In this document: positions 12,902 through 17,040 of the stretch, piece by piece | Position numbering within the stretch: position 1 is the stretch's first letter | Layout: each line of letters opens with the position of its first letter | Source: Gammaproteobacteria bacterium | GTDB taxonomy: Bacteria; Pseudomonadota; Gammaproteobacteria; Steroidobacterales; Steroidobacteraceae | Assembly: GCA_021323735.1 (NCBI GenBank) | Contig: JAJPKM010000012.1 | Span: forward strand, 1 to 47,405 | Length of the DNA stretch: 47,405 nt | Direction: 5' to 3' | The notes under the pieces: model-generated | Databases searched by the model: none | Seen by the model: the letters and a program-made list of their open reading frames with translations, nothing else | Told to the model about the DNA's origin: nothing | Position numbers and translations under genes: made by a program

Positions 12902-13792
12902 ATGCGGTCGATCAATCGAGCATCGCCACTCGGACGGGCTCCCGCGCTTCCAAGTGCGTTGGCCGGCATTTTTCTCTGTGTTCTGGCCTGCCACGCCTCC
13001 GCGAAAAACCTCACCAAGAACCCCAATGAGCCGAAGCTGAAGTCCAGCTCCGTGCTCATCGTCGATGAGAGCGACTCTTCGGTGCTGTATTCCCGAAATT
13101 CGGATATCGCCGCACCCATCGCCTCGATCACCAAGCTGATGACGGCGCTGGTGGTCTTGGACGCCCAGCAGCCTTTGGATGAACCCATCCGGATTACCGA
13201 GGCCGACCGCGACTTCCCGAAAGCGTCATTTTCGCGTCTGACCGTGGGCACCACCTTGACCCGTGGCGACCTAATGCATCTGGCGCTCATGTCCTCCGAG
13301 AATCGTGCCGCGCACGCCCTTGGGAACAACTATCCCGGCGGCATGCCGGCGATGGTGGTCGCGATGAATGCCAAGGCCAAGGCCTTAGGGATGAGCAGCG
13401 CCCATTTCGTCGATCCCACCGGGCTGTCGAGCCAGAACGTGGCCAGTCCCGAGGACCTGTCGAAGCTGGTGATTGCGGCCTCGAAGAATCGCACGATTCG
13501 CGAGTATTCCACCGATCGGAACTACGCCGTGCGGGTGCAGAAGCACTTGGTCGAGTTTCGCAACACCGATAGGTTGGTGGCGAACCCGGCCTGGAACATC
13601 ATCGTGCAAAAGACCGGATACATCGCCGAGGCGGGCAAGTGCCTGGTCATGGCTGCAGTCATCGAGGGTCGCTCAGTGGTTATTGTGCTGCTGGACTCCT
13701 TCGGTAAGTACACTCGGGTAGCCGATGCGCAGCGCGTCAAGACCTGGATGGAGAGCGCATCCAACCGCCACTTCCAAGCGGAGATCCGCTAG
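12902..13792 (+). CDS. pbpG: D-alanyl-D-alanine endopeptidase (PBP7-type, S11)
   Basis: A 296-residue exported penicillin-binding protein that hydrolyses D-Ala-meso-DAP cross-links in the periplasm. The signal peptide runs to about residue 34. All three penicilloyl-serine motifs are intact: SITK (75-78), SEN (132-134) and KTG (237-239). It has no C-terminal beta-sheet or membrane-anchoring domain, which separates PBP7-type proteins from DacA. ATG with AGGAG about 10 nt upstream. Confidence 0.92.
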   Translation: MRSINRASPLGRAPALPSALAGIFLCVLACHASAKNLTKNPNEPKLKSSSVLIVDESDSSVLYSRNSDIAAPIASITKLMTALVVLDAQQPLDEPIRITEADRDFPKASFSRLTVGTTLTRGDLMHLALMSSENRAAHALGNNYPGGMPAMVVAMNAKAKALGMSSAHFVDPTGLSSQNVASPEDLSKLVIAASKNRTIREYSTDRNYAVRVQKHLVEFRNTDRLVANPAWNIIVQKTGYIAEAGKCLVMAAVIEGRSVVIVLLDSFGKYTRVADAQRVKTWMESASNRHFQAEIR

Positions 13793-13839
13793 CCGGCGCG
13801 CAGCCTGTGCAGGCATGACCCTAGGTGTCCGATGATCGG

Positions 13840-13861
13840 CTGCGGACTCATCAATCCGCAG
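13840..13861. terminator. hairpin between convergent pbpG and dprA-like genes
   Basis: CTGCGGA and TCCGCAG form a perfect 7-bp stem with an 8-nt loop. It covers the last codons and stop of the dprA-like gene and lies 48 bp after the pbpG stop. No T-run follows on either strand, so it is only a candidate bidirectional terminator. Confidence 0.35.
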
Positions 13862-14783
13862 TAGCTTCTGAGGTATGGGTGGCGGCAAGGTGCCTCTTGA
13901 TGTCTCCGTAGTCAGCCACCCGTATGGCGCCCTGCTTGGCGAAAGTTTCAGGCCAGGTCAGGGCCGGATTCCGAAAGCAACTCTCGAGGATGAAGAGCTT
14001 GCGCTTCTGCTTCAGTGCGTGGCGGGCTTGTACCAGGGTGCCTGAGGTTTCCCCCGCTTCGACGATGATCGTTGCCTCGGTGAGGGCCGACATGGTCGCG
14101 TTTCGCTCCGGGAAGAAGTAGCGGTTCACCCTCACGTGTTGTTGAGAATACCGAACGATGGGCACCTGACTGATCACCAGGTGAGTGTCGGCGATGAACC
14201 GCTGCAACTCCCGATTCTCGCTCGGATAACATTCCGTGATCGGGGTGCCCAGTACCGCGATCGTGAATCCCCCGGCGTCGATGGCGGCTTTGTGGGCGAC
14301 CGTGTCGATCCCTCGCGCCAGGCCTGACACGATTGTATAGCCGTCGCCGGCGAGCAGACGTGCGAGCCTTGCGGCCCGCTGCTTCCCCTCATCGCTGGGT
14401 TCTCGCGTGCCGACGATCGCAACACAGGGCGCGTCGACCAGGCCCCAAAGCCCCTGAAAGTAGAGTAGTTCGATCGGGTGATCGGCATCGCGCAGCTTCT
14501 GCGGATACTCGCCTGTGCCGTGAATCCGCACGCCGAAATGTCGAATACCGGCGTCGCGAATTGCGCCAAGCGCGAGGCGGGCGTACTTCTCGATGTCCGC
14601 TTGCGACACGAAGTCGGACGGGATTGCGCCTGGATGAGTGCGAAAATCCTCGGCCATGGACTTGAACCACGTGCCTTCTCGTGCCCATAGGGCCTCGTAG
14701 GCCCCGAGTTCGCGTCGAGGAGAGATGGCGCGGTCGGCGAAGTCCGCAGCTGCCGCCGACGGTGAAAATAGATCTTCACTCAT
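13851..14783 (-). CDS. DprA/Smf-like DNA-processing protein (short variant)
   Basis: A 310-residue protein with the DprA Rossmann-like core: VAIVGTREPS, IVSGLARGIDTVAHKAAI, AVLGTPITECYPSENREL, FPERNATMSALTEATIIVEAGETSGTLVQARHAL. DprA binds single-stranded DNA and loads RecA during transformation. The C-terminal winged helix of canonical DprA is missing and the N-terminal 100 residues do not look like its SAM domain, so this is a divergent paralogue. I chose ATG 14783, since a TATAAT box lies between it and an in-frame start at 14834. A perfect LexA-type box precedes it, so it is probably SOS-induced. No com or topA neighbour is present. Confidence 0.85.
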   Translation of the reverse strand: MSEDLFSPSAAAADFADRAISPRRELGAYEALWAREGTWFKSMAEDFRTHPGAIPSDFVSQADIEKYARLALGAIRDAGIRHFGVRIHGTGEYPQKLRDADHPIELLYFQGLWGLVDAPCVAIVGTREPSDEGKQRAARLARLLAGDGYTIVSGLARGIDTVAHKAAIDAGGFTIAVLGTPITECYPSENRELQRFIADTHLVISQVPIVRYSQQHVRVNRYFFPERNATMSALTEATIIVEAGETSGTLVQARHALKQKRKLFILESCFRNPALTWPETFAKQGAIRVADYGDIKRHLAATHTSEATAD

Positions 14784-14789
14784 CGCGCT

Positions 14790-14820
14790 ATTATAGACGA
14801 TGACTGTATGCGCATACAGT
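14790..14820 (-). promoter_or_regulatory. LexA-type SOS box and -10 of the dprA-like gene
   Basis: ACTGTATGCGCATACAGT (14803-14820) is a perfect 18-bp dyad of the CTG-N10-CAG form known for gammaproteobacterial LexA boxes. A consensus -10 (TATAAT, 14790-14795) lies 7 nt downstream of it, and the box covers the place where the -35 would be, the usual position for LexA repression. The ATG is 6 nt after the -10 box, so the leader is very short or absent. Confidence 0.75.
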
Positions 14821-14880
14821 TGAGCCGCTGCCACCGATCGCCTGAGACACCGGCTGACCCGGGCAAGCCACCGGCGTCAC

Positions 14881-17040
14881 TCAGAAGCGCACGGTGAAAT
14901 GCACGCCCCAGTTTCGCGGCTCGCCCAGTTGCACGTAAAGCTTATTGGGGAAGTCGGGCGGCTCGTCGCCGAAGAAGAAACCACGCACGGTGTAGTTCTT
15001 GTCCAATAAATTCCGGCCCCATAGATACGCTTCCCATCGCGGCGTGTCCCAGCCCAACTTGCCGTTGACCAGGCCATAGGCATTCGATCGGGTATTGTTC
15101 GGCGGCAGGTCGTATAAGAAGGAGCCCATGCCGGTCACGTCGAGGCGCGCATAGGGCCCGCGCGGATCGCGCCAGGTGGCATTGATCGAGGCTTGCCAGG
15201 GAGGCGCATGCGGCAACGCGCGATCGGGCAGCGTCACGCCGTTTTGCACGAACCCGTGGTACTGCGTCTGCAGCAGGCCGAGCGAGCCGCCGAATTCCAG
15301 GCTTTTCGTCGCGGCCCAGGCGGCGGTACTTTCCAAGCCGTAGTTGAATCCCGACTTGGCGTTGCCGGTAAAGAAAATAAAGGTATTGGGATTGTTCGGA
15401 TCCAATTGCTCGGAAGTCAGCAGCTGTTCGTTGTGGCGTAGCATGTAGAACAGCGAGGTGTCGATTCGAAGGCGGCCGTCGTCGATTTGCGCCTTGTGGC
15501 CGACTTCAAAGTTCAAATCGGATTCAGGCGTGAACAGCAGCTGGTTGGTGGGCAGCCCGGGACTTAAATTGAAACCGCTCGCCTTGTAGCCGCGGGCGAT
15601 GAGGGCGTAAACATGCTGGCCCTCGGCCAGTGCATAGTCGAGCGAGGCCTGTCCTCCCCACAGATTGTCGGCCGGCCCAAAGTTGTTCGCCGTGGTCGGC
15701 GCATCGAGATTGGTCGTCATGTCGCTGTAGCGGCTGGTGTGTCGCTCGCCGCGCAGCCCTAAGGACCAGCGTGCCCGGTCAGTGAGGTTGCCGTCCATCT
15801 GTCCATACACGGCGCCGTTGCGCGAGCGATACTCGCTCGATGTCACGCTCAAGCTGTCGCTGTTCTGGGTGGCATCGAAGGGATCTACATAGATTCCGGC
15901 CATGGTGTCCGTCAAGGACTCGCGCAGCTCGAAGGCGTAAACGCCGAAAAGCCAGGAGATCCCGGGCGAGATCTCCGATGAACCCCCCGACCCCGACGCC
16001 GGCGTATCGCCGAGGCGGAACTCGAGACTGCGAGTCGAGCGATGGCGCACCTGGTACTCGGTGAAGTCATAGGCATACGGCGCCCAGAGCTGTGGATTTC
16101 CCCAATCCCCGTCGAAACCGTAGTTGACCTTGGTGTCGGCGTAGGTGGCGATGGTGGTGAGGGTTGCCGATCCTAAACCGCTGTAAGTGGAACGTGCGGA
16201 CACCCCGGTGGAAAATTGCCGATCGACGCCGGGATGATCCGATTCCGTGGTACGGCTGTTATCGATGGCGAATGCATCGTAGCCGTTGTCGATTTGCGCG
16301 CGCAGCAGGGTGACATCGACCCGCCACACATCGCTGGGTTCGAAGCGCCATTTCCCGCGGACGGTGAGCTCATCGCGGCTGTCGGTGTTGCTGCGGCCCA
16401 GATAGGCATTGTGGTAGAAGCCGTCGCTGGTGTATTGCTGCACGGCGAGCCGGAACTCGGAATCCAGCGAACTTACCGGACCTGTGAGCACCGCTCCGTA
16501 GGAACGTTCATTGTAGTCCCCCACATCGACTTCCGCCCGACCGCCGAAGGTATCGGAGGGTTCGGCGCTCTTCACATAGATCAGGCCGGCCAGCGCGTTG
16601 GCCCCGTAAAGCGTGCCTTGCGGGCCATGGAGCACTTCGATGTGATCGACATCGAACAGTGTTGCCGCGGAGCCTAGGCCGCTGAAATCGATGTCGTCGA
16701 TCAGAAATCCAACCGAAGGATTCGGCGCCCCTTGGTATTGCTGCAGCTCGCCGATGCCGCGTATCTGAAAATACCGCGGCCGGGAGGTGTCTCCCGCCCA
16801 ATTCAAGTTCGGCACCAGTGCCAGCACGTCCTCGAAATGTTGCTGCCCCGCATCTTGCAGGGTCTGTCCACTAAGAACCGACACGCTGCCCGGTGTCTCC
16901 TCCAGGGGGACCGAGCGCAGCGTCGCGGTAACGATGATCTCGTCCAAGGACTGGCGGTCGGCTTCATCGGCGGCATTCGACCCGGACGAGAAGGTGAATG
17001 CGGCGAACAATAAAATCAGCGCGGAAAATTGACTACCCAT
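14881..17040 (-). CDS. TonB-dependent outer-membrane receptor, probably for thiamin or a precursor
   Basis: A 719-residue outer-membrane receptor: signal peptide (to about residue 23), TonB box DEIIVTA (about 33-39), plug domain (about 45-160; LYGANALAGLIYVKS) and a 22-strand-type barrel ending in the aromatic C-terminus VHFTVRF. It imports a substrate across the outer membrane using TonB energy. The TPP riboswitch directly before the ATG indicates that the substrate is thiamin, TPP or a thiamin precursor; thiamin-regulated TonB receptors are known from comparative genomics in gammaproteobacteria. The gene is monocistronic. No thi genes are in the window. Confidence 0.93.
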   Translation of the reverse strand: MGSQFSALILLFAAFTFSSGSNAADEADRQSLDEIIVTATLRSVPLEETPGSVSVLSGQTLQDAGQQHFEDVLALVPNLNWAGDTSRPRYFQIRGIGELQQYQGAPNPSVGFLIDDIDFSGLGSAATLFDVDHIEVLHGPQGTLYGANALAGLIYVKSAEPSDTFGGRAEVDVGDYNERSYGAVLTGPVSSLDSEFRLAVQQYTSDGFYHNAYLGRSNTDSRDELTVRGKWRFEPSDVWRVDVTLLRAQIDNGYDAFAIDNSRTTESDHPGVDRQFSTGVSARSTYSGLGSATLTTIATYADTKVNYGFDGDWGNPQLWAPYAYDFTEYQVRHRSTRSLEFRLGDTPASGSGGSSEISPGISWLFGVYAFELRESLTDTMAGIYVDPFDATQNSDSLSVTSSEYRSRNGAVYGQMDGNLTDRARWSLGLRGERHTSRYSDMTTNLDAPTTANNFGPADNLWGGQASLDYALAEGQHVYALIARGYKASGFNLSPGLPTNQLLFTPESDLNFEVGHKAQIDDGRLRIDTSLFYMLRHNEQLLTSEQLDPNNPNTFIFFTGNAKSGFNYGLESTAAWAATKSLEFGGSLGLLQTQYHGFVQNGVTLPDRALPHAPPWQASINATWRDPRGPYARLDVTGMGSFLYDLPPNNTRSNAYGLVNGKLGWDTPRWEAYLWGRNLLDKNYTVRGFFFGDEPPDFPNKLYVQLGEPRNWGVHFTVRF

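Follow-up and report, generated by a model that had tools for sequence, protein, structure and literature searches.

A gene for a DprA-like protein, preceded by a perfect LexA-type dyad in this gammaproteobacterial genome, encodes, as judged by profile matches and by its relatives, a ShosA, that is, a relative of the antitoxins of the ShosTA family. We think it probable that an SOS-inducible ShosTA system is present here in a reduced form, in which a LexA-driven antitoxin acts in trans on a toxin encoded elsewhere in the genome. The window (the whole stretch of 47,405 nucleotides that was analyzed) contains no linked shosT, and we therefore speak of an orphan ShosA and not of a ShosTA system.

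The shosA locus and its upstream region

Read on the minus strand, the dyad ACTGTATGCGCATACAGT (14820-14803) is followed after 7 nt by a TATAAT hexamer (14795-14790) and after another 6 nt by the ATG of the shosA-like gene (14783; Table 1). This start codon is backed by the starts of the nearest relatives, L060 and L061, which begin with MTEDLF where the window protein has MSEDLF. The preliminary description of this DNA had recognized the 18-bp CTG-N10-CAG dyad correctly, but it let the TATAAT start 6 nt before the ATG, whereas the hexamer in fact ends there. It had also placed the dyad over the expected -35 region; a 17-nt spacer would indeed put the -35 hexamer, TGTATG, at 14818-14813 and thus inside the dyad, but this is a poor -35, and a consensus promoter scan of 13700-15100 found none. 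Given the position of the TATAAT, transcription is predicted to start at or next to the ATG, with a short leader or none, and the shosA-like transcript may thus be leaderless or nearly so. No toxin gene lies between shosA and the convergent gene that bounds the locus.

Within the window, ACTGTATGCGCATACAGT is the sole perfect match to CTGTN8ACAG and one of three perfect 16-bp palindromes. Genome-wide, the pattern occurs at 21 sites in 4.19 Mb, the same number as for the reversed control pattern, and the chance of meeting it in a given 60-nt upstream stretch is about 3 in 10,000 (21/4.19 Mb x 60). Because the control is equally frequent, rarity alone proves little, and the argument is one of position and conservation.

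Table 1. Features of the shosA locus in the window
Feature	Position	Strand	Remarks
LexA-type operator ACTGTATGCGCATACAGT	14803..14820	.	perfect 18-bp dyad; predicted
-10-like TATAAT	14790..14795	minus	read from sequence
shosA-like gene, 310 aa	13851..14783	minus	profile matches and relatives
Out-of-frame shosT-start stub LPPPIPQKLLRIDES, about 15 codons	13844..13888	minus	overlaps the 3' end of shosA
TonB-dependent-receptor-like gene	14881..17040	minus	upstream, outside the system; ORF list, name read from sequence
D-Ala-D-Ala carboxypeptidase-like gene	12902..13792	plus	convergent, bounds the locus; ORF list, name read from sequence

Assignment of the protein to ShosA

The protein combines a ShosA N-terminal region (about residues 1-84) with a DprA Rossmann domain (PF02481, residues 84-289), which is overlapped by a weaker Pfam match to SLOG; the gene had rightly been called DprA-like. 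Its reported lack of the C-terminal winged helix also holds, as DprA_WH (PF17782) is absent even at an E value of 0.5, whereas the canonical DprA of the same genome (contig C48) contains this domain (E 3.2e-15). Two DprA-domain matches were found in the whole genome. On the DprA equivalog model TIGR00732 the window protein reaches 163.8 bits, below the cut-off of 191.15, and with the winged helix missing and a canonical copy elsewhere, a competence dprA is ruled out. The canonical gene on C48 was also considered as a LexA target and rejected, the sole CTG-N10-CAG in its 9-kb locus preceding the open frame by about 2.6 kb.

The PADLOC ShosA profile PDLC03961 matches the window protein with 318 bits (E 1.5e-95) over residues 27-302 of 310, and the other PADLOC ShosA branch fits far less (80.8 bits). 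The PsyrA profile yields 87.8 bits compared with 318 for ShosA, so that the protein is not assigned to PsyrA / RqlI. The canonical DprA reaches 194 bits on PDLC03961 as well; this score alone is therefore no proof, which comes instead from kinship. The best 80 of 186 relatives on genome contigs (found with an alignment query; a single-protein query found nothing) are 53-77% identical to the window protein, and a ShosT match is also present in the loci of 76 of them, with at least 100 bits in 68; among the four others, L087 stops at a contig end. A ShosT match is likewise present in 35 of 39 viral loci. Four of six plasmid relatives (L029-L032, 54-58% identical) directly precede a gene of 208-221 aa that is a ShosT by PADLOC, a fifth (L028, 58%) is accompanied by no more than a partial ShosT frame, and the cyanobacterial one (L033, 43%) is followed by a different gene.

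Some of these loci show further peculiarities. The Sinorhizobium plasmid locus (L030, 2929-6721) carries two ShosTA-type pairs tail to tail, and the second toxin is of a longer type (414 aa) which fits PDLC03012 best. The ShosT match of L094 (3045-4709) is part of a long open frame that extends over about 555 codons and may encode a fused toxin. DNA similar to the E. coli shosA-shosT pair of L029 was found in 683 of 5,426 E. coli genomes, with at least 80% of the query covered in only 37.

The AlphaFold2 model of the window protein (pLDDT 87.6, pTM 0.86) has pneumococcal DprA (3uqz) as its best match and E. coli ShosA (8zva) as its third when Foldseek hits are ranked by E value. For pneumococcal DprA, six basic positions that contact ssDNA are named in PMC4066776. 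Three of them stay basic in the window protein, namely R127 (equivalent to R115 and invariant in 37 aligned ShosA sequences), R157, and R221 at the position of K202, while the other three are lost (K119, K175 and K225 correspond to D131, S188 and G244). In the acidic RecA-binding triad of S. pneumoniae DprA (E235/D243/E265), E235 and D243 align with R254 and K262, each at least 90% conserved in the same 37 sequences, which are those of the 41 first listed that the structure alignment took in; the third position falls outside the alignment with the window protein. The role of RecA loader, for which the gene had been proposed, thus finds both placeable acidic positions replaced by basic residues, and direct RecA loading in the pneumococcal manner appears doubtful. 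By eye, the canonical DprA of the host also has an arginine at the first triad position, so that the triad may not define all DprA proteins.

LexA-type boxes in the host genome

A single match to the LexA DNA-binding domain was found in the genome (contig C5), and 26 nt before the ATG of this lexA lies the box CTGTATATAATAACAG, which is of the same kind as the dyad in the window and supports its reading as a LexA box. The ORF after lexA, which we take to be imuA, has a sub-threshold RecA match. In related genomes, lexA is preceded by two perfect boxes (G009), by one (G110), or by one with a single mismatch, as seen by eye on the sequence (G048). Another host box, CTGTGTATATATACAG, precedes a small ORF by 57 nt, and after this ORF comes a gene for an SOS-associated SRAP protein (PF02586). 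The possibility that the host LexA might recognize a different motif was checked: lexA carries the motif, but host recA (contig C38) has no CTG-N10-CAG within about 295 nt upstream, the nearest one being inside the preceding ORF. With respect to membership in the SOS regulon, the window gene has an operator of the host LexA type at its predicted promoter, whose -35 is poor, and the same operator is missing at host recA.

Upstream of host recA (C38:31570, L054) there is instead a CAGTAG...CTACTG dyad. A further box, CTGTATTTATATACAG (L021, 1501-1516; C44:109890), is situated inside or just before an ORF without a Pfam match, possibly an unknown SOS gene of this host.

LexA-type boxes across the ShosA family

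A search of other genomes for the same variant and box, suggested by the preliminary description, found that LexA-type boxes recur across the ShosA family. Among 93 loci, a perfect gammaproteobacterial box stands before shosA in the window, L045 (G009), L046 (G048), L060, L063 and L064, and a box with one mismatch in L062. All of these belong to the window clade, in which seven of eight rows have a perfect or one-mismatch box; the exception is L061, the second-nearest complete operon, which has none. The boxes of the six further clade members are found at -32 to -42 (five perfect, one with one mismatch), so that the operator is conserved before orthologues. As the six perfect boxes all fall into one clade, they may reflect one origin.

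The alphaproteobacterial LexA site, described for Caulobacter and its kin, is GTTC-N7-GTTC (PMC9578287, PMC12700426), and we compared both motifs by class for 88 of the 93 ShosA loci. L107 (short upstream region), L057 and L058 (repeats of L061 and L114) and the distant L033 and L047 were left out; class labels were taken from record titles, and the window, L045, L046 and L059 were counted as gammaproteobacterial by kinship. CTGTN8ACAG is present upstream of 6 of 24 gammaproteobacterial shosA genes, whereas it was met in 3 of 615 stretches elsewhere in these loci and, in shuffled sequences, with a mean of 0.04 and a maximum of 1. The count becomes 6/26 if L061 and L114 are included, which were entered as 'Proteobacteria unspecified' but seem to belong to G623 and G527, genomes of the window's class. 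GTTCN7GTTC, on either strand, is present upstream of 21 of 38 alphaproteobacterial shosA genes, as opposed to 5 of 647 other stretches of the same loci and a mean of 0.28 and a maximum of 3 in dinucleotide shuffles; the remaining 17 of 38 have no match to it. With the motifs swapped the counts are near background (gamma motif 0/38 in alphaproteobacteria, alpha motif 1/24 in gammaproteobacteria), and two control motifs gave 0 and 1 of 38 and 0 and 0 of 24, respectively. With no motif specified in advance, the same alphaproteobacterial site, in the form GAAC-N7-GAAC, also tops all 4-mer dyads with spacers of 2-12 (16 of 30 alphaproteobacterial representatives versus 3 of 508 stretches). On viral contigs the alpha motif was found in 9/38 and the gamma motif in 6/38 (other stretches 7/640 and 3/640), counts in which L184/L185 and L189/L190, with identical boxes, are probably repeats and some loci may repeat those on genome contigs.

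Neither motif occurs in the 18 loci of other phyla, and a perfect gammaproteobacterial box is absent from the enterobacterial relatives (E. coli, Enterobacter, Lelliottia, Pantoea, Photorhabdus, Hafnia and Xenorhabdus), of which L117 and L135 have a CTG-N10-CAG with one mismatch to the longer motif. The wiring to LexA is hence common, not universal. Perfect boxes are also missing in three genomes of the class sample (G323, L059; G527, L058; G623, L057) and in one of the phylum sample (G936, L160). A shorter, distant DprA-like/PRTase pair without a LexA box (L047, G110:C2) immediately precedes a gene that resembles those of restriction-type helicases.

Loss of the linked toxin and an unlinked ShosT

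There is no ShosT match in the window, and the frames of 13401-14000, searched with stops written as X, gave nothing above noise; a hidden toxin can thus be ruled out, and only a stub is left. This stub, LPPPIPQKLLRIDES, corresponds to LLPSIPQRLLQIDET in the N-terminus of the L060 ShosT, after which the similarity ends and the remaining toxin gene is absent. It was first seen by eye and scored afterwards, and its local score of 50 against the L060 ShosT N-terminus was reached by none of 2000 base shuffles (largest 37). In the complete operons L060 and L061, shosT begins within the 3' end of shosA, in a different frame. Because the coding of shosA itself preserves part of the stub, the stub is a sign of descent rather than of use.

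An intact ShosT of 221 aa is, however, encoded on contig C21 (C21:22862-23524; PDLC03962, E 1.2e-29), where its GTG start overlaps the stop of an aldo/keto-reductase-like gene (named from its sequence). Its 10-kb locus contains no ShosA-type match and no perfect CTGTN8ACAG, and there is none within one mismatch in L044:3501-5100. In quick trees of 33 hand-chosen rows (31 of 68 paired loci plus the unlinked genes), the window ShosA groups with L060 and L061 (SH-aLRT 95; larger clade 99), and the C21 toxin groups with the toxins of the same two loci (SH-aLRT 99; same larger clade, 97).

The same split is seen in G048, a one-contig genome of the same family, with an unlinked ShosA at 991 kb and ShosT at 647 kb. 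Among 296 genomes of the order, a close ShosA was found in 3 and ShosT in 5, and all three ShosA genomes have ShosT; leaving the linked case out, the probability that ShosA and ShosT coincide by chance in the two unlinked cases is about 1.4e-4 in a post hoc test. None of the seven listed genomes of the same genus has a close ShosA. The ShosA search of the order gave two more hits, one to a distant pair in G110 and one to an apparently canonical DprA in G238. ShosA may be dispensable for ShosT, since G287 (86% complete) and G075 (a partial match with a stop) have a ShosT and no close ShosA. The rank correlation of ShosA and ShosT distances (rho 0.27 and 0.21 for the split pairs, compared with a median of 0.555 and a 5-95% range of 0.201-0.729 for linked pairs, and a median of 0.214 and a 95th percentile of 0.66 for mismatched ones) does not single out the split pairs as cognate, and we therefore relied on clade membership. 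The solitary ShosT of G287 (L157, G287:C83) follows a relaxase-like ORF, a reading from the sequence that points to a mobile element.

Comparison with known systems

A DprA-PRTase pair was reported to protect E. coli from T7 and lambda by Rousset et al. (PMC9122126), who also recall DprA homologues as antitoxins in shosTA. According to the review PMC12593503, which reports work of Pu et al. 2025, ShosT upsets purine metabolism, leading to DNA duplications, filamentation and death, and ShosA binds DNA and likely promotes homologous recombination; the trigger given there is Gp0.7 of phage T7. The window protein resembles ShosTA systems (PADLOC PDLC03961/PDLC03962, PDLC02997/PDLC03012) in its match to the ShosA family, in lacking the winged helix and in having relatives that adjoin or overlap shosT. 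It departs from them in the missing linked toxin and in the LexA-type box upstream, and as the solved ShosA of E. coli APEC O1 (8zva) is just 25% identical to it, the reported ShosA mechanism is carried over by inference.

In PsyrTA / RqlHI (RecQ-PRTase toxin) a DprA-like antitoxin similarly faces a PRTase toxin, whose action raises SOS (PMC4670107), but the PsyrA match is the weaker one here, and four short ShosT proteins that were scanned (208-221 aa) contain no helicase domain. Canonical DprA/Smf shares the Rossmann domain PF02481 but differs in the winged helix, in the TIGR00732 score and in its N-terminal region. Toxin-antitoxin pairs under LexA control are as such already known, for example HigBA of Caulobacter and yafN-yafO with dinB (PMC9578287); here, in contrast, the antitoxin belongs to the DprA-like proteins, and control may be exerted on it alone. 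Among the matches listed in a literature search, no paper was found that links ShosTA to LexA control. The excerpts of a paper on AbpAB speak of LexA for AbpAB and not for ShosTA (PMC10732053), and what comes closest is a LexA site predicted in silico at a gene called simply 'dprA' in the roseobacter Dinoroseobacter shibae (PMC6473078). The genome-defence paralogue that the preliminary description had considered conceivable was right in direction, the gene being a paralogue beside a canonical DprA, but its identity as part of ShosTA had been missed; as a whole, the preliminary reading is partly supported. The HigBA and yafN-yafO proteins are presumably unrelated to those of ShosTA.

Proposed function and alternative explanations

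In the mechanism that we favor, LexA would repress shosA and, in the boxed complete operons of the subfamily, shosA together with the adjoining shosT. DNA damage, be it by a drug, by phage attack or by the disturbance of purines and nucleotides caused by ShosT, would lead to RecA filaments and LexA cleavage, and ShosA would rise, bind DNA and aid recombinational repair. If ShosA aids repair, the SOS switch would close a negative feedback on the toxin; with repair as the antidote, SOS control would be logical, because damage would then raise a repair factor. In this genome the operon has been cut: the window retains shosA and the LexA box, and C21 carries a full-length shosT belonging to the same clade, so that only the antitoxin would answer to damage and act in trans, whereas in complete operons both genes would be raised. 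LexA binding, induction by damage, repair activity and neutralization of the C21 toxin are thus what we would expect of this gene. A bolder version, which we put forward tentatively, is that in a split pair with only the antitoxin under SOS control, ShosA works as a release valve, opened by DNA damage, on a ShosT that is expressed separately, such that damage rescues the cell and does not kill it, and that ShosTA is an SOS-regulon module in many alpha- and some gammaproteobacteria, with operators that arose or were rebuilt separately in each class.

A horizontally acquired, LexA-controlled ShosTA operon might, on the other hand, have lost its toxin and be decaying, with shosA and its box persisting by inertia or as an anti-addiction device against re-invading ShosTA, and with the C21 ShosT as a separate acquisition. 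The toxin stub at the 3' end of shosA would fit such a remnant, as would the patchy occurrence of close ShosA in the order and genus and the distance correlation, which does not pair the window ShosA with the C21 ShosT. Against decay speak an intact, full-length shosA with a perfect box, the recurrence in G048 of a split that retains both genes, the matching clades to which the toxin and antitoxin of this genome belong, and the low probability in the post hoc test that the two unlinked cases coincide by chance; we consider a decaying remnant rather unlikely. It is less probable still that the gene is a damage-inducible RecA mediator, in which case a paralogue of DprA would have been co-opted for SOS repair and would load RecA with no need of a toxin partner: while the DprA Rossmann fold, the LexA-type box, the basic residues R127 and R221 and the likely promotion of homologous recombination by ShosA (PMC12593503) agree with it, the conserved exchange of both acidic RecA-binding positions, the loss of three of six basic ssDNA positions and the ShosT match in the loci of 76 of the 80 best relatives argue against it. 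That the dyad arose as a palindrome by chance or serves some other regulator that binds dyads seems very improbable to us, for although genome-wide the bare pattern is just as frequent as its control, the box recurs at a similar place in six further clade members, and alphaproteobacteria repeatedly have a LexA box of another type, specific to their class.

The SOS-inducible antitoxin acting in trans, which we regard as the best explanation, would bear on the biology of the whole family. ShosTA is reported to work via DNA damage and repair, and the occurrence of a LexA-type operator before ShosTA, in the dialect of the respective class, points to a wiring of this abortive-infection pair into the SOS response of many hosts. 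This would link DNA damage to anti-phage defense through induction by damage, through feedback of toxin-caused damage on the antitoxin and through repair by ShosA as the antidote. Two genomes of the same family, with their split loci, represent natural cases in which the antidote may act by DNA repair, in trans and without an operon, or by contact with the toxin.
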